Shown piece after piece: positions 19,810-58,476 of a stretch of DNA of 64,000 nucleotides. Source of the DNA: Xanthostigma xanthostigma (taxonomy: Eukaryota; Arthropoda; Insecta; Raphidioptera; Raphidiidae); the NCBI GenBank assembly GCA_963575645.1, contig OY754466.1, forward strand, positions 37,976,001-38,040,000. Reading direction: 5' to 3'. The position numbers and the translations under genes are program-made. Each line of letters starts with the position of its first letter. Position 1 is the first letter of the stretch. The notes under the pieces were generated by a model. It was given only the letters and a program-made list of their open reading frames with translations, was not told the origin of the DNA and ran no database searches.

Positions 19810-20131
19810 CTAGCGGTCCCGCCCGGTTTCACTCGGGTGCAAAAGAACGAATGTGGGGAGGGACGCACGTTCATCTTAGTTTACCCAGATGAATGTTGTG
19901 TCCAAATTTCAAGATGACCGTAGTTCTTGTCGGACGGACAAATTTTGAGCTATATTTTGCAACATTTTTCATTGATGCTCCGCTCTTATTAGTCGTAGCG
20001 TGATATTATATAAATTATATAAATGGACTATCCAAGAAAAAAAAAATTTCAATTCGAACCAGTAGTTCCTGAGATTAGCGCGTTCAACCAAACAAACAAA
20101 CAAAATCTTCAGCTTTATATTATAGTATAGA
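19810..20131 (-). mobile_element. Helitron-like element B, short form without tRNA cassette
   Basis: On the minus strand it starts TCTATACTATAATATAAAGC and ends GGGCGGGACCGCTAG next to T. It is 322 bp long. The text GTCGGACGGACAAATTTTGA runs straight through the point where long copies carry the tRNA-like cassette. Confidence 0.75.
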
Positions 20132-21095
20132 TTTAGAAAACAATTTGGGAAAAACTTGAAAAAATGTTACCTACGAAGATAACAAATAACCCTCCATCGT
20201 GGTGCACGGATTGACTGATAAAGATCATCATAAAGTAGTTCGCTTTGGATCTCCTTCACCTCCAAGCAAAATTTTCAAACCTGAAATCCTATGGTTGAAG
20301 GCTAGGGGTTGGAGCTAAGGTTGAAGACAAGAAGTTGAAGCTGAGGGTTGGAGTTAATAGGGGTGGGCGCTCGGGGTTGAGGACTGGGAGACTGACACAA
20401 TAGTGAACATAAATACTTAATAAGCCAATTTTAACACTAGAGTGTCATTGTAATCCCAAAAACTGACAGTTATCCGTAAAGCCAGTTGGACATTTCGATA
20501 GTTTTTGCAGGTTTCAAAAAATGTAATATAACAAACAGTTTAAAAAAATGTACGAATCTTACAGTAGTCTCCAATGATGTGTAATATTTTTATTAATAAA
20601 TACTTATCTTTACCCAATTAACTTTCAGAAACGAATTCGTATAACGAACTATAATATAGTTATTTAATTTATTGAACGTTTATTTCACACTACATTTGTA
20701 AGAGCACGGTTGAGAGCTGTTTTCTTTCTCTTCCCCCCATTTTTTTTGTCTCTCTAATACGTTGCAGTACATGCTCCAATTGTAGATTGCACCCAAAAAC
20801 CATATTATATTATAGTAAATTGAATAGCCGCGCTTCTATAGGATAATAGGTTATATTTACCAAATAATGTTTGACTACGTGAGTGATTGAGGTTTTATTT
20901 ACTGTGAATATATTAAACTACTCTAGTCGCCAAAAATATTAAATATTTCCTTTCAGCACACTTTACTTCGTCTACTGCTAATTTTACATCGTTTACATCA
21001 AACATTTTTTCTGCACTAGCGCCATTCTGGTAACTTTTTAGACTGTGCATGATTTGACGCTTTCAGATGGACACTTTTTCAATTTTATACCCATA
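20132..21095. other. no gene; degenerate GGTTGAAG minisatellite
   Basis: At about 20285-20395 a purine-rich stretch repeats variants of GGTTGAAG/GGTTGGAG. The remainder is AT-rich without recognisable elements. Confidence 0.45.
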
Positions 21096-21653
21096 CTAGC
21101 GGTTCCGTCCGGTTTCACCCGGGTGTAAAAAAACGAATGGGGAAGGGAGGAACATGAGTACACACATTCATCTTAGTTTACCGAGATGAATGTTGTGTCC
21201 AAATTTCATGATGATCGGAGTTACCGTTCAAAAGTTTTTGTCGATAAAAAGCAGTATTTAAACTTTTTTTAACTAGGTAATAATTTTTTTAAAATTAATT
21301 AAATAAAATTAAAATAAATTTAAATGTAAGCCTTAGAAGAAAGCAATGTAGCAAATTAAAAAACAAATAAAAATATATTCGCCCAACGTGGGGCTCGAAC
21401 CCACGACACTGATATTGACAGTCGCATGCTCTACCGATTAAGCCACCTGAGGTTATTATTTTTGAGATACATTTTGCAACATTTTTCATTAAAGCTCCGC
21501 TCCTAATGGTCGTAGCGTAATATTATATAGCCTATAGCCTTCCTCGATAAATGGGCTATCCAACAAAAAAAAATGTTTTCAATTTGAACCAGTAATTCTT
21601 GAGATTAGCTCGTTCAAACAAACAAACTCTTCAGCTTTATATATTAGTATAGA
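21096..21653 (-). mobile_element. Helitron-like element C with tRNA-like cassette
   Basis: On the minus strand it starts TCTATACTAATATATAAAGC and ends CCGGACGGAACCGCTAG next to T. It is 558 bp long. It carries the tRNA-like cassette in the same position and orientation relative to the element as copies A, D and E. Confidence 0.75.
21380..21452 (-). tRNA. tRNA-Lys-like sequence (anticodon position GTC)
   Basis: On the minus strand the 3' two-thirds (GGCTTAATCGGTAGAGCATG, the loop CTGTCAA, then GTGGGTTCGAGCCCCAC) closely match tRNA-Lys, with intact A-box-like and B-box (GGTTCGAGCCC) promoters. The anticodon position is GTC. The 5' strand CCTCAGG cannot pair with GTTGGGC, so tRNA processing is doubtful. 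It sits inside Helitron-like copy C. Confidence 0.6.
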
Positions 21654-22485
21654 TAGATAAGATGGTTCTCCTTACCTCTACCCTCCATAGCTAAGATGTT
21701 TCACACCAAAAAACCCGGTTCACGGTAGTTCAAGGCGATGAAACGCTTTATTGAACTTGTAACGCCACTGTAGAATAAGTATATAAAATAATAGAAGTAT
21801 CTAAGAGCCAGACTGTTTTACATAATATACACGTACGACTGTATATCTGTATATTATTGTACATATATGTGGCTCTATATAGAATATACGCGTCAATTAT
21901 ATTAGTAATTCGCATACATTTTCGACCAACTTCCGCATGTTTTTTTCTCTGTTTAATCTGCGTTGCGAACTCACATTCGCTTGATCGACTAGACAGAGTA
22001 TGGCCTTGAGAAATGCCATTTACGAACTATGAATTCAACCTTCCCAAATTGTTGCTACTGATGAACCAACCAGTCGCTTACACGTATACAACATACACTT
22101 CACGCAATAAATTGTGTAATTGAATTATACCATTGTTTCATTGAAAGCCGGTTCGCAACCGAAACGTATCCCGCGCGCGCGCGCGCGCCAATATCACAAT
22201 CCAACGAACTCGAAATGCCACCTACGTAATGGAGTATAATGGATAAAATTTTGGTGAATGGGCTCCAACGATTGTGGTGAATTTAGAAACGCCCGAAACA
22301 GTCCATTGCTATAGGACAGTTGAAGAAGTAATTTATCTTAGAAACACACTTTTTTCAAGAAAGTAAAACTGTACAGACGCCTGATATTAATAGCACATAA
22401 TACTTAGTCATTTTTAATACCGTATAGCCATCTTGTTAAATACTTTCGGTATGGCCAATATCTATAAAATTCCCATCATTTAGAT
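21654..22485. other. no gene; (CG)8 tract
   Basis: The only notable feature is an alternating CG run at 22172-22188, striking in such AT-rich DNA. Nothing coding was recognised. Confidence 0.5.
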
Positions 22486-22488
22486 TCC

Positions 22489-22740
22489 AATTACGGGGTC
22501 GTTTTTTTTTTCGAAGTGAAAAAGGAAGGGCGTTTGGAGGGAGTTCTTTAAAACACAATTACGAGGTCGTGGCAATGCGATGGTGTTTTTTTTTACGCAG
22601 TGAAAAGGGAGTAGCGTTTGGGTGGAGTTATTTAAAAAAACAATTACGGGGTCGTATCAATATGATGGCGTTTTTTTGCTCAGTGAAAAGGGGAGGGCGT
22701 TTGGGGGGACTTTTTAAAAAAACATTTACGCGGGTCGTGT
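22489..22740 (+). repeat. Tandem repeat of 3 to 4 units
   Basis: Units starting ATTACGGGGTCGT near 22489, 22558, 22642 and 22722 each continue with a T-run, CAGTGAAAAGG and GGGCGTTTGG. Spacing varies between 68 and 85 bp because of length changes in the T-run and in the GCAATGCGATGG segment. Confidence 0.75.
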
Positions 22741-23079
22741 AGTTTAATAAAACACTATTAGTGTGCTCACACTGTTGAGTGAAATTCAATATGGTGTCTT
22801 TTGACGTTTGTGTGTGAAGTTCTTTTTCTGGCGTTTGTATTTTTTTTTTCTAGAAAAACAGTGTGTTTAAAGGCAAATGACTTTTGAAAAGTAATTTCTA
22901 AAATTAATTTTAGGAATTAATATTTTGCTTGACACCTTTCTTCGCGAGTATTCTTGTGTGATATTAATAAATCTTTAAAAAAAAGTGTTCTTTTTTTGCT
23001 TTTTGAAAACTTTTTGGAACCTTTTTTTATAACAAAAAAATTCCCAAAGTCGAATGATTAGTGTTATTTATTGTATTTA
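22741..23079. other. no gene seen
   Basis: AT-rich spacer between a tandem repeat and foldbacks. No features recognised. Confidence 0.4.
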
Positions 23080-23567
23080 GGATTTTTAAGTTGATTCTTT
23101 TTTTAACAGCGTGAGTAGAAATCAAATAGAGGAACAAATATTTCAAGTAGGTAACTTTTTTTATCAAAACTCAAAAATGAAAAAGAGACCGGCTTTCACA
23201 GTTTTAATAAATTTTGAGGTCAGTCCTGGTGTTATGTCATTATCAAGTATTCACAGAAATTGTTCGAAGTTGTCCTCGTTTTGTTGGACATAAAGATGCG
23301 TGCGTTGTAGTCAAGCCAATGCTTGTAGCAGCGATAAGGGCCATCCGCGAATTATTTGGGATGCATTTCCGATTCGTGCTATCATTTCTTCGCTTTTGTT
23401 AATCGGGCTTTTGAATTAATTATAAATAAAATTTGAAAAATACAATTAAACTTAGAACCGCTGTTTCTCTCTTATTTTTGAGTTTTGATGAAAAAGTTAC
23501 TTAAGACATTTGTTCGTCTATTTGATTTCTACACGCTGTTAAAAAAGAACAATCAACTTAAAAATCA
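23080..23567. repeat. Foldback element
   Basis: The arms of about 110 bp at 23080-23190 and 23460-23567 are inverted copies: TTTTTAAGTTGATTCTTTTT and AACAGCGTGAGTAGAAATCA on the left, their complements on the right. The 270-bp centre (23191-23460) is less AT-rich and has two short overlapping frames without family resemblance. Confidence 0.75.
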
Positions 23568-23591
23568 TTCTGTTTATTTTTAACGTTATAG

Positions 23592-23906
23592 TGTAGCAAG
23601 TTTTGTTACATTAACTCTCTCTCTCTTTTTTGTAATATTGTCAAAATTAGTTTTCCTTAGCTACACTGGAAAAATGATTTTGATTGTAAGCACTATTAAG
23701 TTCTTACTTAAAAACAATAAAACGCTTTAATTGAATTATAAATAATTCGTAAAATGGTGTTTTCTCTAAAGAAGAAATTAATCAATTAAATTTTTCCAAA
23801 TTATTAACAACATTTATTTTTCCAGCGTAGCTAAGGAAAACTAATTTTGACAATATTACAAAAAAGAGAGAGAAAGTTAATGTAACAAAACTTGCTACAA
23901 AAATAT
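23592..23906. repeat. Foldback element directly after the previous one
   Basis: GTAGCAAGTTTTGTTACATT, a CTCTCTCT run and TTTTCCTTAGCTAC on the left face their complements on the right, with arms of about 85 bp (23592-23676 and 23818-23906). Only about 25 bp separates it from the foldback at 23080-23567. Confidence 0.75.
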
Positions 23907-26392
23907 TAAACATTTTCTAGTCTCTCAGAATCTACCTCCCTGGGTAGTAACCCAATTTGCCCATGCCTAAATCCGGCACAATTTATGCATAAGGAATAAT
24001 GTGCACTAGCACTACACAAAGTTATCAATTGTTGATAGGCAGGACAACCCTACTGCAATAGTTTTTTTCTGTGATATATTCGCACAATATCAAACAGTCA
24101 ACTGTGTATACAGCATAATAATGTAAACATAGACGCCAACGTACACAAACTCATTGACAGTATATTATTATGCATATTGTAATACCTTTTTATGTATTTG
24201 GATACATGTGGCACGTAGATTTGGATTTCTGATAAGACGGTAACACCGTACGCAATATCAATCATTGGTAATGATCTCAGCTGTTGAGCGTCTACAATCT
24301 ACAATAGTTTAATTGGACTGAATGGGACCTGAATTTTATATTTTTGAAACACAAAATATTTTTTAGGGTGTTGGGCTTATTTAGGATGTAATGAAGGTAT
24401 ATTCAGTGAAAAACTAAATTTAACATTTACCGAATTTTGGAAAATCCTATGTCCACTGAAATGGACAACAGGTTAAACAAAATTTCTTTTACGGGAATCA
24501 TTGGCATAGGATGATGATAATAATAATAATAATAAAAATGTTTAATTATTTACTAAATATAATTAGTAAAGTTAACATCATAGAATTAAAATAAATACCC
24601 GCACAAGAAAAATAAATTACCTACATCATGAAAATACGTAAGTTATATTAAGTAATAATCAGAATGTACACTTTGCGTGAATCCATGACTCCAGGTCAAC
24701 ACTTGACTCGATATTTTGTCTACCCACATAGTGTTTCTTTTTTTTGTTTGGCATACCTACATCTCAGATAAGCTCCAAGAGCCTAGTCAAGAAGTGAGAT
24801 TCATGAGAAAAATAGATCCAACTCTCCAAAAAATATGAGCAATAGCTTATTCGATTCGGAAAAATATTCCGTAAAAGACGTTTTTTTATATTTTTCGGCG
24901 ACAAAAATTTCATTTGTTATTAACAAAAAACGAAAAGAAAAAAAAACGCTCATATTTTTGGCAATTACTCAAAAACTATAAGCGATAGCAGAAATTGATG
25001 AAAAAGATTCTTAAAGAGGAAAAAATTTCCAATAATAAAGTCCCACTCCCGAAATTCTATCTCTATTATTTATAGTTTTTATTTAATGTTGAAAATAGGG
25101 TTCCGAGCGGCCGTTACAGCTCGAGTACAACACATAAAATAATTTTGTATAGTATTCAATAACAATTTAAAAATTTGAATAAATTATGGTATCATTTTAA
25201 CACAAAGAATAAAGTTCCGTTCAAATTAAAAAAAAAATAAAAGTGAGGCTATTTTTTTTTAATAATCGTCTCCCTTGAAACAACAAAAAATGTTTAAATA
25301 ATTGGTCTATAAATTTGTTGCTTTACGGAGCCCTTTTTACATATATACTTAACAAGATATCGTTATAAAAGTTTTAAAATGCGTATTTTTTTCAATTTTT
25401 TCAAACCAGACTGAGTCACTGCATCGTGTGGCAGGGTTCAGCTAGTGCTCTATAGAAATATCATTCAACGTTTCGTCGGTCATCGCGAATATAATGGAAC
25501 ATATGAAATATAAAAAATTGATGGATACGATGTATTCGAAATAAGTACCTATATAAAGATAAATTTGAAGTAGAACTATTCGCAGAGTAGCTAGAAATAA
25601 TATTTGAATGCTGTTTAGAATGATAAAAAAACAGTCTAATACGTTTTTTTTATTATTATACAGTCAAAAGTTGAATGTTCTAAACATGACATGGATGACA
25701 GATCGGTGTCTGGTTGTCAAACTTTACTGCAAAAAAACTGTCCCATGCATCAAGATTAAAAAAAGAAGTGCGAATTGAATACGATGAACTATTAGATTTT
25801 ATCATATAGACTTAGACTGTATGTGCAACTTACATAATATCTATAAACACAATATTATTTTCCTGAAAGTAGGTATTTAGTTTTTATTAAATGTAATAAA
25901 TTTGGTTCTGTTCAACCAATTTTGCTCAAATTTCCGAGGCAACTCTATATTCCATTGGGAATTATTAAGAGAGCTTATTGAAAAGCAGTTTTGTTATTAC
26001 AATTTCTCCACAAAAATTCCTGTCTTCAAATTCTATGTCACTAAGCGCCTCTTTAAATAAAGTTTTAGAAAGACATTGAAAATAATAATCATATTCAAAT
26101 TTTAAAACAGTCCAGACCTAGACATTTTGCACACTCCAAAAATGACTGTTTCCGAACTAATAAGAAATAATAATAAAAATAATAATAATAATAGAATTTT
26201 ATTTGTAGCGACCAACAGGTATACATAACGTCAAAATACAAAATTCTTTACAATAGATAATAACTATAATAATATTCATATTATTATTATTAAGAATAAA
26301 TATAAATAAATTTAGCAATAATTTGAAACACGCGCGGTTTGTTTGCAAAACTTCATAAGGAAAAATATGTATAGGTATATATTATATAGTAT
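23907..26392. other. 2.5 kb without a supported gene
   Basis: AT-rich with AAT microsatellites at about 24515-24538 and 26165-26190. No open frame has a domain signature. A possible Helitron-type GCTAG end occurs near 25445 but has no partner. Confidence 0.4.
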
Positions 26393-26786
26393 AGGTGACC
26401 GGTAATTGCTCGTATTCCTCTCGGGAGAATTTGGGAGGTCGGAAATGCGTCGTTTTTTTACGATAATGACACTTCTGTGAAGAATTTCTAACATATTTTT
26501 TTATTTATTGTAAGTTTTAACAAACAACATAAAATCTAACAGTTTCCGTGGTTTTTAGCTTTAGGAATATTGGCCAATTAGCAAGCTATCAGATCATGGA
26601 AAAATTCAGGCCAAAAAGTGAGAATATTTTTTTTTTTTAATTTTTAATTCCCAAAATTCGTAGTTTTGTAAAAAGAAACCGAAGTAGATTTTCTAGAAAA
26701 TGACGCATTTCCAACTTCCAAGTGATAGAAGTCAAATCGTTCCAAATTAGTCATAGTTTCTTCTCCCGAGCCATTACCGGTCACCT
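26393..26786. mobile_element. Palindromic MITE with AGGTGACCGGTAA ends
   Basis: Inverted ends AGGTGACCGGTAAT / ATTACCGGTCACCT are flanked by short AT/TA sequence. Further inward CTCTCGGGAGAA and GAAATGCGTC match their inverted partners. A partial copy lies at 15446-15541. Confidence 0.7.
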
Positions 26787-27849: not shown

Positions 27850-28130
27850 GTTACACAATCAATGCTAAAGTGTAACAGCCACCGGCAGACCACAAAACTC
27901 GCATGCGTTCTGTATGGCAGACTTTCTTGCGTTCAGGCGCTGTTCTGTGCTTCGAAGCAGCACATGAAACGTCATCATCAGATACCCCCGGTATACATCG
28001 TGAAACTTCTGATCCAGATCGGCTTTGGGCTGCATTTATCGTCCGTACATTAGTACAAATAAGCATCTGGCACTGTCACATGCTAATCTATCTCATTCAG
28101 TCAACACATTTGATGACTTAACTCGGCGGT
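27850..28130. other. GC-richer segment, possible exon or decayed element
   Basis: This 280-bp stretch is clearly less AT-rich than its surroundings and is open in several frames on both strands (for example 71 codons on minus at 27851-28066). I do not recognise any of these peptides. It may be a host exon, an untranslated exon or old transposon coding sequence. No TIRs or splice pattern can be asserted. Confidence 0.2.
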
Positions 28131-28800: not shown

Positions 28801-28805
28801 AATTA

Positions 28806-29554
28806 TCTATACTCTATACTAATATATAAAGCTGAAGAGTTTGTTTGATTGTTTGGTTGGTTGAACGCGCTAATCTTAGGAACCACTGGTTCAAATATAA
28901 AAAAAAATTGTTGGATAGTCCATTTATCGAGGAAGGCTATAGGCTATATAATATCACGCTACGACCAATAGGAGCGGAGCATCAATAAAAATGTTGCAAA
29001 ATGTATCTCAAAAATAGCTTCTATTCAGGTGAAATGCCGTATCTACAATATTAGGTCGTGCATTCACAAGCCCGGATAGGTCAGTCGGTAGAGCATGCAA
29101 TTGTTAATATCAGGGTCGTCGGTTCGAGTCCTACGTTGGGCGAATATATTTTTATTTTATTTTCCACATTGCTTTCTTCTAAGGCTTACATTTAAATTTA
29201 TTTTAATTTTATTTACGACTAATTCAAATTAAATAAATCTAATTAATAGCTCATTTGAAAACTGTTATAACTATATAGGTACCTATATAAAAATAATTAT
29301 CCTACAGTGTTTTCAATTAAATATTTATTACATTTTATTAATTACAGTAATTATTGATTAAAAAGAAATTTATTACTTAAAAAAAGTATAAATACTGCTT
29401 TTTTATCGACAAAATCTTTTGAACGGTAACTCCGATCATCATGAAATTTGGACACAACGTTCATCTCGGTAAACTAAGATGAATGTGCGTACTCTTGTCC
29501 CTCCCTTCCCCATTCATTTTTTTGCACCCGGGTGAAACCGGACGGGACCGCTAG
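28806..29554 (+). mobile_element. Helitron-like element D, longest copy
   Basis: It starts TCTATACTCTATACTAATAT (the first 8 bases are repeated) and ends ACCGGACGGGACCGCTAG followed by T. At 749 bp it is the longest copy. It has the tRNA-like cassette, plus extra AT-rich sequence downstream of the tRNA part (about 29215-29390). The DIRS element begins only 12 bp beyond its end. Confidence 0.75.
29070..29142 (+). tRNA. tRNA-Lys-like sequence, best-preserved copy (anticodon position GTT)
   Basis: It begins GCCCGGATAGGTCAGTCGGT and ends GTTGGGC plus G, so the acceptor stem can pair with the G-U pairs typical of tRNA-Lys. The D-arm, T-arm and both internal promoter boxes (TCAGTCGGTAG region and GGTTCGAGTCC) are present. 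The anticodon loop TTGTTAA gives GTT (Asn) instead of CTT, and the anticodon stem is imperfect. A functional tRNA gene is unlikely given its location inside a mobile element, but pol III transcription is plausible. Confidence 0.6.
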
Positions 29555-29566
29555 TTAAATATATGA

Positions 29567-29810: not shown

Positions 29811-31070
29811 ATGGGCAAGAAGAGATCACGTTCACGATCAAAGGATCGAGATCGGGATGATCGAAAATCGAGTAAAAAACTCAAAGAAATGCAGGACCAA
29901 ATTAATAACCTAGCAGAATGTATGAATTTATGAAAGTATTTATGCAAAGTCAAAAGGATAAAACATTTGATAATGCAGGTGAGGAAAATAAATATACTAA
30001 AATATGAATATTCCAAACGAACATTCATATCGGGCAGCTCCACACGAGCTCGTCCCAGTTCCATACGAACGTTTTAAGCTGGTAGTACCTATACGGTACG
30101 TACTGGCCCAGTAGAGTGACGTTCAACAAGAACTCGATACTCCTGGCAGAAATAAATATATATATATACAAAAAGTATATATATATGTGTGTGTATATAA
30201 AAATATATATACTTTGACAGCAGTCTATATATATGTTCCCTCATTTTCAAATACTGCGGACAATAACAATAATTCTCAGGACACTGCTAATAAAGAGTCC
30301 GCGGAAACGGTGGTGACCGAAACACCGGTTATTCCTCTGGAAGTTGAGCAAGACTCAGTCAATAAGACTCCAGACGAACCAACTGGGGATCAACCAGAGT
30401 TGAACCAAGAATTTCTAGAGATGATGGGAGAGGAAGTCCCATCGACGAACTCTATAATGAAGACAGACGAAACTGTTGAAAAACAGTGGTCTAACTGGAT
30501 GTCCAAGGGCTTATCAGAGGAGTCTCGCAAGGAATTACTTAAGAAATATTCTCGAGTAGGAAAATTCCGTACCGAGGCACCTAAAGTCAATTTAGAAATA
30601 GTAAGCCACTTAACAGAGGTAGCAAAAAAGAGAGACCAACATTTCACTGATACCCAAAATTGCGTGGGTACACCTCTTGTTTCTCTTGGTGCAGCAATGG
30701 CAATGTTGATGGAGAATCCTGAAGAAAATCCTTTATCACTCCTAACCTTGACAAGGACATAAAGGCTACCTTAGACGCCACGGTCTCTGATGAGTGGTTG
30801 TATGGTGCAAAATTAACCGAACAGGTGAAAGACGCCAAAAATATTAAGAAAGCTGCAGCGTCTCTCAAAGCTCCTGAGAAACCATCAACTAAAAAGTCAA
30901 ATACTCCGGGAAACTGGAGAGGCCCGCCTGGAAAGGTCAAACAGGTGGGCTACTACCCGAGGCGACAATTCTCCAACGTGAAATACAAACCAAGGCCATT
31001 CCAAGCAAAGTTCCAGACATCAAATCGCTCGACAACACAGACGTCGAGCCGATCATTACCGAAGAAGTAG
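29811..31070 (+). pseudogene. DIRS gag-like region (fossil)
   Basis: The region starts with an arginine/serine-rich segment (MGKKRSRSRSKDRDRDDRKS) like the nucleic-acid-binding starts of DIRS gag proteins. It then holds a long acidic and helical segment and a basic, Q/N/S/T-rich end before the polymerase region. Gag would package the RNA. An AT-rich microsatellite tract (about 30145-30205) lies within. Identity rests mainly on position upstream of the RT inside a DIRS element. The region is broken. Confidence 0.65.
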
Positions 31071-31079
31071 GAAAGGTAA

Positions 31080-32840
31080 ATTTTATTGCAGGTAGATTAA
31101 AGCACTTTATTAAAGAGTGGAAAGAAATTACAAGTGATGAATTCATATTCTCCTGCTTAGAAGGGTACGATATAACCTTTGAAAGGGAACCAATACAGCT
31201 TCGGGAGCCAGATACTCCGAACTGGTCCCCAGAGCAATTTGAGAAAATCAACCAAGAAATTTCCACTCTTTTGTCTAAAAAAGCAATTGAACCACGCGAA
31301 GACTGCGAGGGCCAATTCGTGTCGTCCTACTTTCTAGTTGAAAAACCAGATAAATCTAATAGATTTATCATTAACCTACAAAAAACTGAATGAATTCATT
31401 CAAACCATTCATTTCAAAATGGAGGACCTGAGGGCAGCGAGAAATTTATTTTCTCGGGACGCCTATATGGGAACCCTGTACCTTAAGGACGCGTATTTAT
31501 TGATACCAGTTAGTAAAAATAACAGAAAATACTTAAGGTTTCGATTTAATGGTATCTTGTATCAATTTAGATGTCTCCCGTTTGGATTATCGACTAGTCC
31601 TTATATCTTCACTAAAATTATGAAGCCAGTCATAAATTTTTTACGCCTAAAAGGCTGGCTGTCAATAATATATCTAGACGATATATTATGTATTAGTGAT
31701 TCATACGAGATATGCTATGATAACATAAATTCCACTATCAAATTATTAGAAAAATTAGGATTTATTATAAACTATAAGAAAAGTTCCATAGTTCCAAATA
31801 AACGGTGTAAATATCTTGGTTTTATTTTAGACTCAAAAAAAAAATATTCAGTAGATTTGCCGGACCAAAAGAAAAATCAAATAATAAAAATTAAACCAAT
31901 TTGAAATAGGGAAACAATACAAAATCCGTACTTTTGCGCAAATACTGGGAACTCTAATCGCAGCATCACCAGCAGTAGAATATAGTAAGGTTTATTGTAA
32001 AAGACTCGAAAGAGCTAAATGGTTAGCATTAACTGTAAACGATAATAACTTTGAAGCTCGTATGAATATCACACAAGAGGTACTGGAAGATTTCGCTTGG
32101 TGGAAATCTCATGTACTGATCGGCACTAACCCAAACGATAAAAAATTTTCATATAAATTACCTAGAGCTCTTAGCTGCCTTTTTCGCCTTAAAATGCTTT
32201 GCATCTGAGCTCACTAACTGTGAAATCTTAATGCGTATAGATAATACTACGGCCATTTCCTATATATACAAAGCTGGTGGGGTAAAATTCCCACATCTAA
32301 GTGAACTTGCGCGAAAAATCTGGCAGTGGTGTGAAGCCAGAAAAATCTGGATAACTGCTTCATACATCGCTTCGAAAGAAAACGTCGACGCAGATGCTGC
32401 GTCCCGAGTGACTAATTTAGATACGGAATGGGAATTAGGTGGCAAATACTTTAGACAAATTATTAAAAAATTTGGTCCCTGTACTATTGATCTATTCGCA
32501 TCTAGAATTAACACGAAGTGTAAAAAATTTTGCTCGCGCTACCCAGATCCAGAGGCATCGGTAGTCGATTCATTTACAATTTCATGGGAAGAAGAACAAT
32601 TCTATGTTTTTCCGCCCTTCGCGGTTATACTACCAACACTAAGAAAAATTATTAGTGACAACGCAACTGAAGTAGTGGTCATTCCGAATTGGTACCCACT
32701 ATTTACTTCTCTTCTGTGTGAAGACACATTAATATTAGAGCCATCACCTGATCTTTTACTCTCTCCATGCAAGAACAGAAGTCATCCCCTGGCACACAAA
32801 CTCTCTCTAGTGGTAGGGAAGTTGTCAGGGAAGCATACTT
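31080..32840 (+). pseudogene. DIRS reverse transcriptase, RNase H and methylase-like region (fossil)
   Basis: Polymerase motifs are clear: LKDAYLLIPV (palm aspartate), FRCLPFGLSTSPYIFTK and the catalytic YLDDIL. An RNase H segment follows (MRIDNTTAISYIYKAGG ... SKENVDADAASR). The next block, TIDLFASRINTK...YPDPEA...SW...FPPF, is the region DIRS elements carry after RNase H that is related to Dam-type methylases. The enzyme would copy element RNA into cDNA for circle formation. The region is broken, and no attempt is made here to reconstruct it. Confidence 0.88.
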
Positions 32841-33790
32841 AAGCAAAGGAATTCCTAAAGACTCTGTAGACTTCATGGTAGACTCGATAACACCATCAAC
32901 TCTCAAGCAATATGAAGGATGTCTCAAAAAATGGGTTTCATTTGCCACAGAAAAAGGTTATAACATATTTGATCCTAGCAGTTCAAATATCATTGAATTC
33001 TTAACGAAGAGATTCAATGAAAAAGCTAGCTATGGAACCTTGAATTCGTCAAGATCGGCGATTTCACTGATAGCAAAACGCGATGTATACAAGGACGCCC
33101 TCATATCCAGGTTTTTTTTCAAAAGAATTTTCAAACGCCGACCTACCACGCCTAAATATTCCACCACTTGGAATACAGAGCAGGTTTTGGAATATATAGA
33201 AAAACTAGATTTGATAGATAATCAAAAATTAAAGGTTGTATCGGAAATCGCAGCGACACTCCTAATACTCGTGACGGCTCATAGACTCCAAACTATTGCC
33301 TTAATTAACATAGATAACTTAAGCGAAACTTCATCGGGGCTTCAGATAAAGATCCCTGATTTGATAAAAACGTCGAAACCAGGGAAAAACCAACCAGGTC
33401 TCATGGTTCCCTTCTTCGAGAAGCGACCAAAGCTCTGCGTAGCTTAATCTATAATTTTACACTACCTCAAACTTACAGAATCATTTAGGAGAGATAACAA
33501 AAACTTGTTTTTATCTACAGTGAAACCTCACAAGCCAGTTAGCCCTCAAACGATCGGGCACTGGATCAAATCCTTATTGAGCAAAGCAGGTGTAGATACT
33601 CAAAAATTTAGCGCATACAGCGCCAAGCACGCTGCCGTCTCAACGGCTTACCGAAAAGGATTAGATATTGATACAATAAGAAGAACAGCAGGTTAGACGA
33701 AAAATTCAGAAACATTTGCACGTTTCTACAACAGACCTCTTTTGGAATCAAATACTAAGTTTGCTATGGCAATATTATCAAAAAATAATT
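32770..33790 (+). pseudogene. DIRS tyrosine recombinase region (fossil)
   Basis: It overlaps the end of the RT frame, as usual in DIRS elements. An N-terminal SAM-like DNA-binding part (TLKQYEGCLKKWVSF) leads to a catalytic part with TAHRLQTIALINIDNL, then PQTIGHWIKSLL and YSAKHAAVSTAYRKG, and ends in an FYNRPL box where the family has its tyrosine nucleophile. This enzyme would integrate the circular DNA copy, so no integrase or protease of the LTR type is present. The region is broken. Confidence 0.85.
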
Positions 33791-34032: not shown

Positions 34033-34039
34033 ACTTCCC

Positions 34040-37097: not shown

Positions 37098-37175
37098 TTG
37101 GATCAACACTACTTTATACTTTATAAATTCGGCAGTAGTTCGTCATTGTCGCCAGGCAGTTATTACAGTTTTTTT

Positions 37176-37503
37176 AATCAAAGCACGTCGACTCGACATC
37201 GCGACAACTCGCACGAGACTGGGCAGCCACTCGAATTATGTGGACAGCACAGGCGAGCCGAGCTACTGGCGTGCGAGTTCACAATTCGAGCAGCTGTCTA
37301 CTGTCAGGTCAGCAGCTCGCAATGTGTAAGCCAGAGATTAATCAAAGCACGTTGACTCGACATCGCGACAACTCGCATGAGATTGGGCAGCTACTCGAAT
37401 TATGTGGACAGCACAGGCGAGCCGAGCTACTGGCGTGCGAGTACACATTGCGAGCAGCTTGTCTATTGTCAGATCAGCAGCTCGCAACGTGTAAACCAGC
37501 CAT
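37176..37503 (+). repeat. Two-copy tandem duplication, period 164 bp
   Basis: Unit 1 (37176-37339) and unit 2 (37340-37503) both run from AATCAAAGCACGT through CGACATCGCGACAACTCGCA to CAGCAGCTCGCAA.GTGTAA. They are over 90% identical and GC-rich. Open frames here are a consequence of the repeat and are not counted as genes. Confidence 0.85.
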
Positions 37504-39172: not shown

Positions 39173-39820
39173 CTAGCGGTCCCGCCCGGTTTCACCCGGG
39201 TGCAAAAGAACGAATGGGGAAGAAAGGGACATGAGTACACACATTCATCTTAGTTTACCGAGATGAATATTGTGTCCAAACTTTATAATGATCGGCGTTA
39301 CCGTTCAAAAGTTTTTGTCGTTAAAAAGCAGTATTTATATACTTTTTTTAAGTAATAAAATTTCTTTCAAGACATATAATAAATATTTAATTTTAATTAG
39401 TCGTAATAAAATTTTAAAAAATTAAAATGTAATCCTTATAAGAAGCAATGTATAAAATAAAAAAAATAAAAATATATATTCGCCGACGTGGGGCTTGAAC
39501 CCAAGACCCTTGCATTAAGAATCTTGCACTCTACCGACTGAGCTATTCGACCTGTAACCGTCGTGCGCTAATATTGCAATATATAGTTAAGGCATTTCAC
39601 CTGATAATATTTGCCGAACGGACTAATTTTGAGGTACATCTTGCAACATTTTTCATTGACGTTCCGCTCCAATTGGTCATAGCGTAATATTATATAGCCT
39701 ATAGCCTTTCTCATTAAATGGGTTATACAACAAACAAAATTTTTTTCAAATCGAACCAGTAGTTTCTGAGATTACCCTGTTCAAACAAACAAACTCTTCA
39801 GCTTTATGTATTAGTATAGA
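39173..39820 (-). mobile_element. Helitron-like element E with tRNA-Lys cassette
   Basis: On the minus strand it begins TCTATACTAATACATAAAGC and ends GGGCGGGACCGCTAG next to T. It is 648 bp long. It retains both the short-form text (CAAAATTAGTCCGTTCGGC) and the cassette, so it shows most clearly where the cassette sits. Confidence 0.78.
39481..39552 (-). tRNA. tRNA-Lys-like sequence with CTT anticodon
   Basis: On the minus strand TAGCTCAGTCGGTAGAGTG is a canonical D-arm/A-box. The loop TTCTTAA carries the genuine Lys anticodon CTT, and GGGTTCAAGCCC gives the T-arm/B-box. The acceptor strands (GGTCGAA / GTCGGCG) pair poorly. Of the four tRNA-like cassettes it is the only one with a lysine anticodon, pointing to tRNA-Lys(CTT) as the ancestor. 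Confidence 0.6.
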
Positions 39821-49581: not shown

Positions 49582-50176
49582 TTTTTGTTTCAACCACAGT
49601 GGCTCTTATAATATTTGTATAAAGATAATATATAAAATGTCATTCAAAAAACATAAATTTTAATAGACTAAATTTTGGTTTGTCGTTTATTAAGCTCGCC
49701 AACCAATTTATCTTGAAATAGAGGTAAGAAATAGTTTTTTGACATTGGATTTTTGTTTGTTCAAAATTCTGTTCCTGAAATAATAACTTTAAGAGTAGTT
49801 TGCCAGACGTTTAGGTCAAACGTAACGGTGGCAAATGCATTTTTTTCCTTATAAATAAAACATACCCTTGTGCTTTATGCGTTAATTTTATCAAAAAAAT
49901 TATTAACAAAATATTTCTTATTGCAAAACTGGACAAGTCAAAGAATCCATTTTTCATTTACCTATAAATTTTAGCTTTGCTATAATTTTTTTTCATGAAT
50001 TTTATGGGGTGAATTTTGCTGCAATGGTTGCTCCGCCTATATTATTTTTTTATGGAAGGATTATATCGTTCGTAAATAGGTTTAAAAATAATTGTGTTCA
50101 AATTAAGTTTCTATGAATAGAACTTGAACATTACTATTCAACTTATTGGTGAGCGATCAATAACTTTCGTCTATAT
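49582..50176. other. no gene seen
   Basis: AT-rich sequence, no recognised features. Confidence 0.4.
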
Positions 50177-50400
50177 TCTATACTAATATTATAAAAGTGG
50201 ACAGTTTGAATGTGTTTGTCTGACCTGGGTAATGTCAGGAACTACTGAACCGACTAAAAAAAATCTTTCACTGTTTACCTACTTCTTCCCGTGTAACACT
50301 GTTATGCTATACTATATGATAAGACATAACAAGTTGCTTTTTATTATTTCGATCTCAATCTAAAATTTATCCAGGTGAATCCGGACCGGAAATCCAATCA
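50177..50400 (+). mobile_element. Helitron-like 5' end
   Basis: TCTATACTAATATTATAAAA followed by GTGTTTGTCTGACC...GGAACTACTGAACCGA is the usual 5' text of these elements. No CTAG terminus was found downstream, so the right limit is approximate. Confidence 0.45.
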
Positions 50401-52750
50401 CATATCGAACGCGCTAAATAAATAAAAAAGTATTTTTTGCACACCCCACTATAAAATACCCGTATAGCGGTGGCAAAATGACCCATTTCGCACAAGTGCG
50501 TGAAGTAAAACAAAAGAAATGCGGTTCTACCAATCTAACAGTAATTGACTAAAAGGCCTGTCAATTACCATTTGAAAATTTATAAGCGACAGAGACAGTA
50601 AAGTAGGCGTAGTCTTCGCAAACTTTCAAATAGATTCCAATATGGCCGAACAATGAACTATCAGTTATATAAATATACACTATTATGAAAGTGCAAAAAA
50701 TGTAGTATGTGTCTTATTATGACTCGTGTGACTGTAAAACCTCATTGGCATCTCGTTTTAACATAATAGCACAGCTCGTATATAACTGCTTTTACGTTCT
50801 GAATACATAATTACATTAATAGCAAAGCCAAGGTCGGGTAAAGTTTTCTACCACAATATAAGTGATTTTTTCCGAATATTTATAATTCAGTATACTGGCT
50901 CTTGTGTATTTAGTCAAGACATTTTTTATACAAAATTTTACGAATGTTTGTTTCAAGTATCTAAATATAACACTCAGGAAATATTATTTCAAAGTTTAAG
51001 TAAATTAATATTGAAACCCTTCGTTTCACCAACATAAATTTCTACTTAATTAAATCATAATAGAACAAATAATGTTATACAAATCTACAAACAGTATTGT
51101 AGTAAAATGATTCAAAATGGCGCTTGTACTATCTATTATACAATTATTATATTACGACAGCCACTCCTTTCAAAAAGTTCCTAAAATATATCATGAACAA
51201 AAATACATCAGGGAAAGGAATAGAAGGAGTGGCTCAATCACTGATAATTATTTCTCATTTGCAACGTTTCGTTACAGTTTCAGAACAAATATGTTTTAAT
51301 ATATAGTTATATAATGGTACTGAACCATCAAGTTAAAAATACATTAATATTATGTAAAAATATGGACTATAATAATGATAGAATGTAATTAATTATTTAA
51401 TTATTTTTTCTACAAAAAATATTGAAATATTTTGATTATAAAATGTAAAAAAATCTAAATCCATAGAATTTGAGAAAGAATTTTACAAAAAAACGAATCT
51501 TTCAAGATGGCGCAGCCCCCGGTTCCGGAAACAAAAATGTTTTTTAGAAAAGTGTTAACGAAAATAGTTACGTTTGAAATATCATAATTATTTGAATTCG
51601 ACTGTAAAAATAAAATAGATCTGCAAAAAGAATATTTGCAATATTAAATAATTTTAAGAAAAATGCATTAAAGATATAACTCGAAATGAACATACTGACA
51701 AATGTTAATTTTTGAACGGGGTATTTAATAAAAAATTTAAAACATATCACACTATAATGTAAAAAATTGATGTATAAATAAATTAACAAAAAAAATTAAT
51801 TAAATACAGCTTAAATTTAACGAAAAAACGCACTTTTTCATTAGTAAATACTCTTGAAAAAGATGACGCGACGTGAAATGGAATTAAATAAGAATGTAAG
51901 GAGGAAGAAGAAATACAGAGAACAAAAACTCAACAACTCCTGGCCCGCGCAACACGTGCTACAATCACCGCATATCCTTGAAAAGCATTCTGACAATTGG
52001 TCAGTATTTGACGTTAATATGTAATAATAATAATGTGCATTTGCAAGTCTCAAAATATAACGAACTATTGTATCAAAAATTTGTGCACAGTTTTTGATAT
52101 CCGCCGCAGCCCATACCGGAAATGAACGCAATATAACAACGCAATCATAGATTTGATGTACATTTAAAACGAACCAAATTTGAATAAATTTCTATTAAAA
52201 GTTACCGTCAAACAATATAAGAACTATTTAATCTAAAGTAATTTTTCTATTTTATTAGTCAGTTACAATACATTTAGTTAAAAAAATTTACAGTTGTTTC
52301 TATAAATAATACCAAAATTAAGGTTTTATCCTGTAAGCTTCAGAAAATAGCAATGTGCAGCTTATAAAGTCTAAAGAAATTGATCGGTAAACTTTTCTTA
52401 CCGTTTTTGATCACTTGTTGAAGTTTCCCAACAATAAGTACGCGGAAACAAATGTTACGTAATAAGATAACACACGATTGGTTATGCAACATACATAGAT
52501 AAATAAAGACGGGTACATAATTATGTTTGTGTGTAATGATTAATAAACTTGTGTTGGTGAAATAGCACTCAGTTCGGTGAAGTTTTCTAAAACTATTGCT
52601 GATAATTGTGTAGAATAATTTGATAATTAACAAATTAATTACCTTGCTACATATACGACACACGATGCACTATTTTATAAAAATGTATCGACACACACAC
52701 AGAGAGAGTACGTCTTTAATAGGTACACTTTTCTTGTTTTGCAATTTTAT
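50401..52750. other. 2.3 kb without a supported gene
   Basis: AT-rich throughout. Short frames on both strands (up to 107 codons at 52340-52663 minus) are low-complexity or lack signatures. No terminal repeats found. Confidence 0.35.
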
Positions 52751-52779
52751 TTTGACTGAGTGTTAAGTTTTAGAGGTAT

Positions 52780-53240
52780 AAGTTTTGATGCGCGAACGGA
52801 GGAGCGAAGCAAGCAGCGACAAATGCAAGCTGACCCGGCCTACTATGACGTCGCCGGTCAACTGTCTGTACAGTCTCGACGATCGTGAAGCGAAAACGCT
52901 CGACTCGCAATAATACTCGTGCAGATTCGTTCGAGCGCGCGTATGTGTGTGTGTATGCGTTCTGTGCGTCGCGGCGTGCACTCCGTTGCCGCGTTGTTGC
53001 TATTGCCTGCTGCTGCTGCTCTGCGATCGGAGTCGCGATTCTCGCCGCGCGGCACCGCCGACGTTGTACTTGCCTCTTGCATCCAACGTGCATAACACAC
53101 ACTCATACCGATTCCGTTCCTCCTGCGCTGCGCCGCGCTCGCTTTATTGCAAATTCTCTATATGCTACGTGCACCCGTCTCTTACCGCGCTCACCATTTG
53201 TTTCACGTCGCGTCCTCAAAGCCATCCAAGATTGCACAGG
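52780..53240. promoter_or_regulatory. CpG-rich island, candidate host promoter or 5' exon
   Basis: This is the most GC- and CpG-rich stretch of the window. It has a CRE-like TGACGTCG at 52846-52853, GTGT and CTG triplet runs, and open frames in at least four registers (up to 139 codons on plus). Such overlapping openness reflects GC content rather than coding. The context fits a promoter or untranslated first exon of a host gene whose other exons lie outside. A TCAGT initiator-like motif is present on the minus strand near 52752. Direction and identity are unknown. Confidence 0.35.
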
Positions 53241-54442
53241 ATCTCAGTTATCAAACAAATTATATTACCTCTCGCATGGTTTTATTGGTCGATTGTGTTC
53301 TTAACTCGACTCTCGCAAAAGTATTTCTCAGTTATCAAAATATCATAAATAATTATTTCTTACAAGACTTTACCATCGGTTACTGTAGATTAATTGACAA
53401 ATCAACCAACGCAAAATTGGGAGATTCAGGTTTGAGTCCTGATATTAAATAGTTGTAGATATATTTAAAACTTTTCCATATTGATAACTGAACATTTTCA
53501 ATAGTGCGTGATTAAAAGAAACACTTATTATATAGATAAGAGTGTAGGTACTCTTTTTTTTCAACGAGTTAATTATATCCTACCAAAAACAGTCGTAAAC
53601 AAGCCGTTAGAAGTTTACACCCTCGAGATCCACACGACCAACTTCCCAGTAAATATTTAATATTAAATCAGATTCGAGAAATCTTTTTCAAAAAAATCCT
53701 ACAATACATTCTTATACTATGTTAAACGACAGGACTAATTTGGATAAAATTTCTGGATAAAGTTCCGGTTAAAGGACATGCTTGATTTTTACGTGTTAAT
53801 CTCGATTAGTGATGAAAATTCCCAAACGGATTTTTGGCTCAAATTCACCATAAATATTTTATGGGAGTAAGGTTTCAATGATTTATAGTCATTTAAAAAG
53901 TTGCCAAATGTTGTGATTAAGTTGATCTTGACTACATATAAATAATATCCAAAGGAGGTTTGACTATTATATACCGACCTGATATTTTTATTGAGGTTTT
54001 CATTTTCACGTCATATTAACAACAGACTTTAATCATTGTCCACAATGCTTTGAGTGAATCGCGCTTCGATTTTTGACATCGACGACGCCAATTCACGACC
54101 CATCCACCGCCATGAAGACTCGATATTTTGCATAAGGTGAAGTGGGGTAAGATCGGACCGGTTTCTGTAAAGTTCCACTTTTAACACATTTATTTTTATG
54201 TTCTTTTAAAAATATTTAACCTGTATTGGTTTCAAAGCAAAGTAGAGTTAATACTCTATAATTTGTTTTAAAAAAAACACCAATTTCCCTTAGAAATTTT
54301 CATTTATATAGAAAATTAAACAAACTGTACCCACTGCGAACTTGCCCCGCATCCGGCGCAAGTTCGTATAAACAACTATTTAAAACCAATTGAAATGTAT
54401 CTTACCGTGTTCTACTTCTGTATAATGAATATATTATATATT
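53241..54442. other. no gene supported
   Basis: AT-rich. Plus-strand frames trailing out of the CpG island have no domain. No repeats with ends. Confidence 0.35.
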
Positions 54443-54569
54443 ATTCAATAAATAAAATTATCGACCAATTTTTCAGAAAATAATTAACAAAAAAATATAA
54501 AATTAATACATTATATTTTTTTGTTAATATATTGTCTGAAAAATTGGTCGATAATTTTATTTATTGAAT
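54443..54569. repeat. Minimal snapback of the Penelope-like tail family
   Basis: TTCAATAAATAAAATTATCG and CCAATTTTTCAG face their inverted copies across a centre of about 35 bp. It is the same family as 43551-44688 but without the hammerhead-like segment and without the nested foldback. Confidence 0.75.
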
Positions 54570-55427
54570 GTTATGGGGCATTCGCGCTAAAAATCCTTTG
54601 GGGATTTTTCATGTACAATCAAGGTCAACAAATGCCCAAAGTTTCATCTCGATCGGACGTGTCTCCTAATCGACACTTTACCCAAATTTCTTTCGGATCA
54701 TATTGACGATAATACGTTTCGGTTAGCACCCTGACAGTCCATAGGGACATCCATTAATTCCGTGAAAGGGGTAAGACAAAATTTCACCAAATCTTTGACA
54801 TATTTGCTTGTACAGTAATATCGATAATAAATTCTATTCTTATTTAAATCGAGGAGACAGAAAATGATATCAAAATTTTGATTGATGGCAATTTCTTAAC
54901 ACAGTTTGCAACCTTCAATTACGTTAACATTGGCAAAATAATCGACTCGGGGACCCTTTAGAAAAATATGTGTCAATTTCATTACTGTTGCCCAATAAGG
55001 CTGGCGCAGATAAAATAATGAGAATAGGGTTCTGCTTTTTGGACACGGAACCCTAAAAATAGTAAATTAATATGAATGACGTAAAAGAAACTTACTCCGA
55101 ACACGCCACAACATCTCAGATAATAAATGCATCGACAGTTTACTCGGTCATTTGTTATAATTTATTATTTATCCAAGACAGCAAATAATAATGGCTAGAT
55201 GAACGATTTCGTAACGTATTGTATAAGGTTATGTTTAGAACGAAACACTACATCTAGAATCTTCGTGGATCCAAAGAAAAACCCTGTTAGCTTTTCAAGT
55301 TTATTTTTATTAGTTTCGTTTACAATTAAATTTCACAATTAAAACCAACGGGGGGAGCTATGGTGCATTAAAACATCGGTTTTAAGTAGCTCAACTTTTT
55401 TACTTATACAACGTTCAATTATAATTA
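54570..55427. other. no gene; short GGAACCCTAAAAA repeat end
   Basis: At 55020-55063 AATAGGGTTCTGC...GGACACGGAACCCTAAAAA matches the end of the GACA-bearing repeat at 63.29-63.50 kb. Otherwise nothing was recognised. Confidence 0.4.
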
Positions 55428-55640
55428 GAATTAGAGTTTAAAAACTCAAAAAAAAAACACTATTTTATAGCAATGTGGGCTAAAAAGTAAAAAACATAAT
55501 GATTTTGTTCAACAGCGATAGGAGCGAGTTGGGGAACTTTCTTCGCTGTTGAACAAAATCTTTGTTTAAAAAATATGCTTTTTACTTTTTAGCCCCTAAA
55601 TAAAATAGTGTTTTTTCAAACTCTAATTTTAATCACAAAT
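55428..55640. repeat. Foldback element
   Basis: GATTTTGTTCAACAGCG faces CGCTGTTGAACAAAATC across a 35-bp centre. Outer arms with GGGCTAAAAAGTAAAAAACA and AAACACTATTTTAT face their complements. Same family as 17742-17940. Confidence 0.75.
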
Positions 55641-56411
55641 ATAGCGGAAAAAGGTATAGGGGTCCTCTGGAATCGGGAACAAACTGTCGCATTTGTCAAC
55701 ATTTTTTGTCCTCCTCTTTTTTGACAGTCCTGTCACCGAACTATACCGAACCGGGAATTAATAACTAACCACATTCATGCCTACTATGTTTAACGACTTT
55801 TAAAAATTCATCCACTTTATGGCTTCTAAAGAAAATCTTAAAATAAAAAAAATATGAAATTTGAAAAACCCACAAATGGATAAGTATCTAGTTCGCATCA
55901 ACAGAAAATGTCACAGTATTAAAAATTTCTAAAAAAGATGTGACAGTAATTTATTACTTACAAACTGCACCAGGCAAATTATTTGTTGAAATTGTAACCA
56001 TTTTTGTTGACTCCGAATGGAATTGTCCGTGAAGTTTTGCCAGCATTGTCTGAAAAAAGAAAAGTTTTGTTGAATCACTATTTGAAATAAAAGTTTTTAA
56101 TCTGAAATTACGTTTGATTTTGTCAAAATAATTGAGAAATAAAAATATGTTTGCCCATAAATATTTTTTTTTAATTTGCACAAAATTGTCATTATAAGTA
56201 GGGTAGCATAAGTTATTCTACGTATTTTGAAACAGTAGTTTATGTATCTAGGACGTAAAAATGGGAGGGAATCTCCCTTAAAGGGCGGGAAGAGTCAATG
56301 AAAATCTCACGTCAATTTTTTAATTCAGAGAATAAGCATTATTAGAACAGGTAACATTTATAAAGTATTTAGAGGGGTCCCACCACATCTTACCACAACC
56401 ACATAGAGCTT
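55641..56411. other. no gene seen
   Basis: AT-rich sequence with no signature. Confidence 0.4.
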
Positions 56412-57258
56412 CTGAACTTTTTGTGAAGCTGATTTAGGCATGGAAATGACATACCTACTTTACTCAGTGCAAACAATGAAAATGGAACAACTGGACTTGG
56501 TGATGCAAAATGTCATTTTCAATCACCAAGTCCAGTTGTTTCTAGGGATAATCAACCCCTAAATATGCATCAGTAGGGTTGAAAACGTCAACTCATTTTG
56601 GCAAAACTAAGATTTTCACAGGATTTTAAATGCACATTTTCTAAACTATATTTAAAAATGCAGAACTAAATTTCGGTCGGAACACCCCGAGACACTCCTT
56701 TGAAGGAGTGAGATAAGGAAATTTTGTTCTGCCTTTTTAAATATATAGTTTAGAAAAGGTACATTTGAAACCCTGTGAAAATCTCAGTCTTGCCAAAATG
56801 AGTTGATGTTTTTAACCCTACTGATGCATATGACTGGACTATTGAGTAAGCACCAAAGTTGCTTAACTTGCTTTGATCACTTTCGCTGACAAGGGTGGAG
56901 GGGTCAAAAACTACGTAATGCTTGAATGGCAAAATGTCATTTTCGTTGTTTGCACTGAGTATACTAGCTGCGGCGAAAGATGAAGCCACCACGTCATAGT
57001 GACGTGAACGCATTGCGCCCGCCATCTAGCTTGCTATTGGCTGTTTTGGAGATCCATGTGCGTCGAGTGTTTATTTCTATTCTACCGCTATAAATGGATA
57101 TGTCGAATTTATTCCACACGTCACTGTCTGCGGGAAAGTAGGCGTTCACTAGCATATTATTGATGACGTGCCTGGCTTCAACTCTCACCGCGGGCACTAT
57201 AAACTACATTATAAAGTGTGTCACTTCCATGCCTAAATCAGCTTTCAAAAAGTTCCGT
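56412..57258. repeat. Two-level foldback element
   Basis: The outer inverted ends (GAAGCTGATTTAGGCATGGA and its partner near 57225-57250) enclose a second palindrome at 56461-56962 whose ends are TACTCAGTGCAAACAATG and its inverse. Inside, CAACTGGACTTGGTGAT/ATCACCAAGTCCAGTTG forms a further hairpin (about 56489-56540), as does the pair CACTCCTTTGAAGGAGTG. The right shoulder (56963-57220) is GC-richer and has short frames of no known family. Confidence 0.7.
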
Positions 57259-57494
57259 AGCTATCGGTCTATAACTATAAGGGTCTAACAATCGGAATTC
57301 CGCGCTAGGAACGCAAACCCGGGAGGGCGCAATTAGCAATGCGGATTATGATTGTTGTATTTATACACCATATTATATCAACCAATCAAGTGTTGAGGGC
57401 GGCAAAATCTTGAGATGGGGGCCGATGAGTCCAGTAATACGACACTGTTTGCAGTATTTAGTATTCGAATACTGTTTGTTTCGAGTATTTAAAT
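57259..57494. other. no gene; unknown GC-richer patch
   Basis: A moderately GC-rich piece with CCCGGGAGGGCGC near 57318 and GGGGGCCGATG near 57418 looks like decayed transposon ends. Nothing is assignable. Confidence 0.3.
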
Positions 57495-57955
57495 ATCCTT
57501 TACCATTTCAACCCACAAGTGAGGAATGGTACTAGTTTTGAGGTTCCCCGAATCCAAAAAACATATTTTTGGAAAAAATCTGTGCGTCTGTTTGTCTGTG
57601 AGCACGATACATGTCAAACGAATGGGGATTGAAACCAAATTTTGGGGGGATGTTTGGTATACAAATATGAAGAGTCCTATTGTTTTTGGGGAAAATTGGT
57701 GCATGCGCAAAAGAAATGTATGCTATAACGTTTTTTATATAATAATGGTATTCTTTTCATAACGATTTATTTCTATTTTTTCAAGAAAATTTTGTATTAA
57801 AATTTTTTTTATTTTGAAAATAAAAAAATCAGCTGTCCCTTGTTGTGTAGATCTGTCAGAAATAAATTAGTTAAGCATGCTTTGATTAATTTTTACATGA
57901 CGTGGAACATATTATGCATCTAACCACGGCAACGAATAGCAAATATCATATTAAA
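57495..57955 (+). repeat. R4 family repeat, copy 3
   Basis: It begins ACAAGTGAGGAATGGTACTAG and includes GAAACCAAATTTTGGGG, TGCATGCGCA (57700), CTATAACG and TAGTTAAGCATGCTTTGATT. Open frames on both strands (57489-57762) span the repeat and are not conserved between copies. Confidence 0.65.
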
Positions 57956-57956
57956 T

Positions 57957-58090
57957 ACTAGCCATTACCCGCGTCACCTAGCGCGATATCAGAAGTTTTA
58001 TTCTCTTTATACTATATCAAATGTCAATATTTTTGAAGTTGGGATGGTCCCGTCGCCCAATTGGCTGGAATTTATTTTGTATTAGATTCA
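57957..58090 (-). mobile_element. Reversed Helitron-like 3' end beside R4
   Basis: CTAGCCATTACCCGCGTCAC is followed by CAAATGTCAATATTTTTGAAG and GATGGTCCCGTCGCCCAATT. An inverted copy of this latter part is at about 60395-60450. Confidence 0.4.
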
Positions 58091-58114
58091 AGTTTGATTT
58101 GACTATATATATTA

Positions 58115-58476
58115 CTAGCGGTCCCGCCCGGTTTCACCCGTGTGCAAAAGAACGAATGGGGGGCGAGGGACATAAGTACGCACATTAATCTTAGTTTACC
58201 GAGATGAATGTTGTGTCCAAATTTCATGATGATCGGAGTTACCGTTCAAAAGTTTTTGTCGGACGGACAAATTTTGAGTTACATTTTGCAACATTTTTTA
58301 TTGATGCTCCGTTCGTATTGGTCGTAGCGTGATATTAAAGCCTATAGCCTTCCTCGATAAATGGGCTATCCAACAAAAACAAAAAAAATTCAATTCGAAC
58401 CAGTATTTCCTGAGATTAGCGCGTTCAACCAAACAAACAAACTCTTCAGCTTTATATATTAGTATAGAAGTATAGA
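58115..58476 (-). mobile_element. Helitron-like element F, short form without tRNA cassette
   Basis: On the minus strand it starts TCTATACTTCTATACTAATA (the first 8 bases duplicated, as in copy D) and ends GGGCGGGACCGCTAG next to T. GTCGGACGGACAAATTTTGA is uninterrupted, as in copy B. Confidence 0.75.

Follow-up and report, generated by a model that had tools for sequence, protein, structure and literature searches.

The stretch of DNA analyzed here, called the window throughout, comprises 64,000 nucleotides of the genome of Xanthostigma xanthostigma (Raphidioptera: Raphidiidae; assembly GCA_963575645.1, contig OY754466.1, positions 37,976,001 to 38,040,000 of the forward strand) and harbors six full copies of one non-autonomous Helitron family, designated A to F (Table 1). 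Copies B and F represent a short form, made up of a 5′ arm of approximately 200 bp and a 3′ arm of approximately 143 bp (lengths taken from copy F), and copies A, C, D, and E represent a long form, in which a cassette lies between the arms. In Helitron sense, the cassette consists of a leader (mostly gone in C), a tRNA-like part of 72–73 bp, and an A+T-rich trailer. The short and the cassette-bearing forms are each present in thousands of copies in the assembly, and the cassette looks like a captured tRNA-Lys(CTT) gene with its own terminator rather than a short interspersed nuclear element (SINE). The account that we regard as probable is that a lineage of the family captured such a gene, and that plain and cassette-bearing lineages spread as DNA through Helitron proteins acting in trans, with the cassette as a passenger.

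A preliminary, sequence-only reading of the window had recognized the six copies as one Helitron family, and its description of them holds, as does that of their ends, apart from small departures in copies A, B, and C. As it had noted, B and F run straight through the junction GTCGGACGGACAAATTTTGA, which within the window is exact in these two copies only, with a single further match (three mismatches) in copy E and none expected from shuffled sequences. Extra DNA is present at this point in copies A, C, D, and E, where the gaps between the BLAST pieces of copy F measure 273, 216, 393, and 289 bp, respectively (250–430 bp in the sequence-only reading). The Helitron 5′ to 3′ sense is that of the plus strand in A and D and of the minus strand in B, C, E, and F, and the tRNA-like stretch follows it in four of four long copies, again as described. 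Reading the letters at the anticodon position yielded the same four triplets (GTC, GTC, GTT, and CTT in A, C, D, and E), and several versions of the tRNA part have been amplified. Short-form text, GTCCGTTCGGC, is indeed retained beside the cassette of copy E and is missing from A, C, and D. Copy C alone passes the Rfam tRNA threshold (29 bits) in the window, where ARAGORN in bacterial mode found no tRNA and Rfam found one.

Table 1. Helitron copies in the 64-kb window, their tRNA-Lys-derived parts, and a related fragment (positions are those of the window)
Feature	Position	Strand	Remarks
Copy A, long form	11568..12190	+	5′ end reads CCTATACTAAT
tRNA-Lys-derived part, copy A	11835..11907	+	Anticodon letters GTC; T4 run 6 bp downstream
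Copy B, short form	19810..20131	-	322 bp; reads TCTATACTATAAT
Copy C, long form	21096..21653	-	Ends AACCGCTAG; cassette leader mostly missing
tRNA-Lys-derived part, copy C	21380..21452	-	Anticodon letters GTC; Rfam tRNA 29.7 bits
Copy D, long form	28806..29554	+	Arms group with short copies (mixed copy)
tRNA-Lys-derived part, copy D	29070..29142	+	Anticodon letters GTT
Copy E, long form	39173..39820	-	Short-form text GTCCGTTCGGC kept next to cassette
tRNA-Lys-derived part, copy E	39481..39552	-	Anticodon letters CTT
Copy F, short form	58115..58476	-	362 bp; small duplication of own 5′ end
Fragment with only 5′ end in common	50170..50247	+	Interior differs

Evidence for the mode of movement comes from 86 copies of either form, drawn from the window and from loci elsewhere in the assembly, with end positions set from BLAST. 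The 3′ end reads CTAG in 74 of them and is followed by T in all 74; the 5′ end begins with TC in 69, and the base before it is A in 65 of these. A 6-bp flank repeat, as would mark a target site duplication, was seen in none of the 86 copies. An empty site is also available, since the joined flanks of a 727-bp long copy (L082) match an unbroken stretch at another locus (L046) at 160 of 194 positions, with no bases gained or lost at the join; of the three joined-flank matches viewed, one was clean, one was gapped, and one reached only 16 bases past the join. Movement as DNA, with Helitron-type insertion between A and T, is supported by these marks. The assembly contains 89 matches to the Helitron_like_N domain (PF14214), many of them in frames of approximately 1,555 codons. 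The fragment in the last row of Table 1 perhaps belongs to another Helitron family with the same 5′ terminus.

The assembly scanned comprises 623 Mb in 28 contigs. The short junction has 6,933 matches in it (27-base pattern, two mismatches allowed), the cassette trailer 8,361 (28 bases, three mismatches), the long right junction of the cassette 8,507 (32 bases, three mismatches), and a 51-base piece of the 3′ arm 10,373 (three mismatches), the same patterns written backwards giving 0, 1, 0, and 0 matches; the mismatch limits differ between patterns, and the numbers of short and long matches can be compared only roughly. At approximately 640 bp per long and 340 bp per short copy, both forms together would make up an estimated 1.2% of the assembly. 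Two patterns compared with viral contigs gave no exact match. The sequence-only reading had allowed that the cassette might occur in no other genomic copies, and it occurs in thousands. It had likewise allowed that the short form might stem from several internal deletions with scattered endpoints, which is not borne out by loci chosen by their 3′ arm: 8 of 20 show the short junction, 12 the long right junction, and none any other, in a set cut from the 100 exact 51-mer matches listed on one contig (C1) and covering part of the family, as the exact 51-mer leaves out a subfamily designated X and most A-type copies, in which the arm differs. Apart from subfamily X and a few copies with deletions, the long copies sampled share one right boundary. 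The separateness of the forms is also apparent in an arm tree with 27 short and 44 long copies, which needs two short/long changes, compared with 22 on average and no fewer than 18 in 200 shuffles; the rows were chosen by patterns or as best matches of copy E, and one long locus is counted twice (L009 and window copy E). The input to this tree was 92 sequences, of which 71 were used; 20, including copy B, did not have two near-complete arms, and L045 had an odd gap.

The junctions bear on which form came first. Among 61 loci, the left junction is of class E/D2 in 35, A/D in 13, and X in 8, with 5 in no class (L029 was assigned to X on a loose pattern and is probably misplaced, given that its arms cluster with those of E). 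E-type copies have GTCCGTYCGACAAA to the left of the cassette and CGACAAA to its right, the latter forming a 7-bp direct repeat around the cassette, and A-type copies lack the left junction piece. A long form could have been ancestral, with the short form produced by one internal deletion, for example through the CGACAAA repeats or by a template switch, and spread afterward. Taking one repeat and the cassette out of the E-type long form gives the short junction, as a deletion between the repeats would; the cassette is found in several subfamilies, whose tRNA parts are worn to different degrees; and two loci, L092 and L102, bear other internal deletions, which have the same CGACAAAAAC boundary as their endpoint and do not give the short form. 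Against this history stand the distances between consensus sequences. The short consensus lies 0.028–0.043 from each long consensus, at the hub of a star, and the long ones lie 0.049–0.062 from one another (0.018 for E and D2); short copies also diverge most from their own consensus (0.048–0.050, versus 0.029–0.047 for long copies). Since patterns served to choose the samples, and young copies are overrepresented in the E set, the evidence on direction is moderate. The position of the short consensus at the hub and the greater divergence of the short copies favor gain: the cassette was likely acquired by a short-form ancestor, and an origin of the short form by deletion appears rather unlikely.

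The nature of the cassette was assessed in 17 long copies, namely the four in the window and 13 loci picked by the trailer. Their tRNA part agrees at 57–63 of 73 positions with a reference tRNA-Lys-CTT sequence, in keeping with an origin from a tRNA-Lys gene. In each of the 17, a T4 run begins 4–12 bp past the tRNA part, and patterns of our own design match box B in 15 and box A in 11 of them. The Rfam tRNA threshold is reached in 5 of 20 scanned loci (L101, with 57.3 bits and a cloverleaf-like fold, L103, L092, L095, and L075), the first four of which had been picked by a tRNA pattern; of 14 loci picked by the trailer, one passes. As the T4 run would stop RNA polymerase III (pol III) just past the tRNA part, the arrangement fits a tRNA gene captured with its flanks and not a SINE. 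Subfamily X (L093 and L095–L099) also contains tRNA-Lys-like sequence, which in L095 scores 37.9 bits in Rfam and in L096 and L098 is gapped.

Confinement of the cassette to Helitron arms points the same way. All 30 best matches of the E cassette adjoin both arms, some of them incomplete. At loci on C1 found by the exact trailer or by a tRNA pattern, the cassette adjoins an arm in 19 of 19 cases and both arms in 18 (20 stretches were cut; L083, cut at the wrong place, was dropped), and 12 of 12 tRNA-pattern loci lie in arms, 11 with both. No stand-alone cassette was found among these 61 cassette loci read with flanks (30, 19, and 12), the rest of the genome not having been read. In two small loci, L129 and L130, the cassette leader and trailer are present and the arms would lie beyond the stretch read. 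Another locus, L131, holds a lone tRNA-Lys-like copy followed by CCA, with neither leader nor trailer, which is what copying of a mature tRNA would be expected to leave. A SINE of tRNA origin that inserted into a Helitron and was then carried along would fit the tRNA-Lys-like part of the cassette and the CGACAAA repeat around it in E-type copies, and SINEs of this derivation have been described in Lepidoptera (PMC3272025). Transcription by pol III would, however, end at the T4 run before reaching the body of such an element, and approximately 60 bp upstream of the tRNA part is not expected of a SINE. The comparison with stand-alone SINEs, suggested at the outset, therefore comes out against one; on the position of the terminator and the lack of stand-alone copies with target duplications among the loci read, this origin was rejected, and we consider it improbable.

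In pairwise comparisons of the long copies (L078, without a 3′ arm, excluded), the tRNA part averages 0.80 identity, the leader 0.78, the two arms 0.89 and 0.93, and the trailer 0.90, the last value being biased upward because part of the trailer was used to pick 13 of the 17 copies. The tRNA part is as variable as the leader and more variable than the arms, and no sign of selection on it is visible; CpG decay may account for part of its wear. Within it, box B is better kept (identity 0.91) and its window ranks 9 of 141 in conservation. The sequence-only reading had pictured a hybrid, transcribed by pol III and moved by Helitron enzymes. Its Helitron half is upheld by the insertion marks; promoter-like boxes and a terminator-like T-run are present, and the pol III half fails to find support in conservation, the tRNA part as a whole being no better kept than the leader. 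A cassette acting as a working pol III unit that aids the Helitron, for instance through transcription running across the element or through recruitment of TFIIIC, would be consistent with the boxes, the T-run terminator, the rank of box B, and the thousands of long copies. Counting against such a role are the variability of the tRNA part as a whole, the spread of the short form without the cassette, and the Rfam result given above (5 of 20 loci, four of them picked by tRNA pattern, and one of 14 picked by trailer), and it seems very improbable. A Helitron that has made a tRNA gene mobile as a pol III unit, still transcribed in some copies and of consequence to element or host, for instance as a supply of tRNA-Lys-CTT from Helitron copies, is more doubtful yet.

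Capture of a tRNA-Lys(CTT) gene by the Helitron remains the account that best accommodates these observations, and its steps can be set out as follows. A non-autonomous Helitron lineage would have taken up the gene once, in Helitron sense, between two arms, together with approximately 60 bp upstream and approximately 135–265 bp downstream. Helitron proteins supplied in trans would then have multiplied the plain form and several cassette lineages, placing copies between A and T at thousands of sites. The cassette would most likely be a passenger, given the wear of its tRNA part beside arms that have remained similar. We infer the single capture, the gain into a short-form ancestor, and the mobilization in trans.

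Several observations weigh against this account or parts of it. No source gene with the flanks of the cassette was found in the searches made. A pattern from the reference tRNA-Lys-CTT matched 21 places in the assembly, all with two or three mismatches, and 35-mer and 34-mer patterns for the same tRNA matched 140 and 146 places, none exactly; half of a tRNA-Lys-TTT sequence matched 13 places, two of them exactly. The loci retrieved from the assembly contain no N. The host tRNA-Lys-CTT gene may differ from the reference sequence or be missing from the assembly. The lack of an exact match to the three patterns is what would leave room for the doubtful supply of tRNA-Lys-CTT by Helitron copies mentioned above, and we do not build on this absence. 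A single clean capture is not proved, as the left junction exists in at least three versions and subfamily X has a different right junction. The CGACAAA repeat may be a duplication made by insertion or the guide of a deletion that made the short form. Copy D is an exception in the arm tree, its cassette being joined to short-form arms, and the way in which the rows were chosen sharpens the groups of that tree. At the 3′ terminus, the best predicted fold is a hairpin (CCCGG-6-CCGGG) lying 12 nt from the end, which is no stronger than in shuffled sequences (z 0.2). An autonomous partner was not identified: the stretches at 6 of the 89 PF14214 matches lack the arms and ends of the family, some element ends not having been reached.

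Other repeats lie in the window. Positions 30187–33447 contain four reading frames, of which the second encodes a reverse transcriptase domain (PF00078, 77.9 bits), and the third and fourth have weak methyltransferase-like and integrase SAM-like matches, respectively, just under the Pfam cut-offs; the order of the frames is that of a DIRS-like retrotransposon. Tandem arrays occur at 2161–2620 (unit of approximately 150 bp), 22500–22739 (83 bp), 37174–37499 (164 bp), and 61791–62103 (109 bp).

Capture by Helitrons is known chiefly for pieces of protein genes and hardly for RNA genes; what would be new here is a whole tRNA gene with its terminator as cargo. As far as the available parts of the papers cited here show, a close parallel lies in the non-autonomous, gene-fragment-capturing Helitrons of the silkworm (PMC3789558), which share the TC and CTRR ends, insert between A and T without target duplication, and likewise hold foreign DNA that is multiplied with the element; the cargo differs, being in the present family a non-coding tRNA gene with a terminator. 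The silkworm survey relied on BLASTX against proteins to detect cargo, a search blind to tRNA genes, and the term tRNA is absent from its text. The same is true of the text of the paper on the Lep1 Helitrons of Lepidoptera (PMC4038834), elements that are also small and non-autonomous, have acquired sequence, and insert between A and T, the likeness being one of description. tRNA genes in annotated Helitron sequence have been reported from Arabidopsis, where tRNA-Cys repeats overlap Helitron annotations (PMC10701932); this is the closest report, and its authors remark that their tRNA-Cys cluster, if amplified by a Helitron, would be the first case of a captured non-coding RNA. That case concerns four tandem genes, and the Helitron was unconfirmed by three prediction tools, whereas the present family comprises thousands of dispersed copies with insertion marks. 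The lepidopteran SINEs HaSE1 and HaSE2 (PMC3272025) also possess a tRNA-related part with pol III boxes, from which the elements described here differ in their DNA insertion marks, Helitron ends, early terminator, and lack of stand-alone copies among those seen. The available text of two further papers (PMC6685494; PMC8010984) contains nothing on a Helitron with a tRNA, and a literature search, with subscription journals mostly outside it, returned no title or opening of an abstract on a Helitron carrying a tRNA gene.

On the reading preferred here, RNA genes can be cargo of Helitrons and be spread thousands of times by them. The two forms would provide a paired natural test, in which the same arms occur with and without a predicted pol III promoter in one genome. 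The family is also a warning, in that tRNA counts and SINE annotations in genomes such as this one may include Helitron copies.

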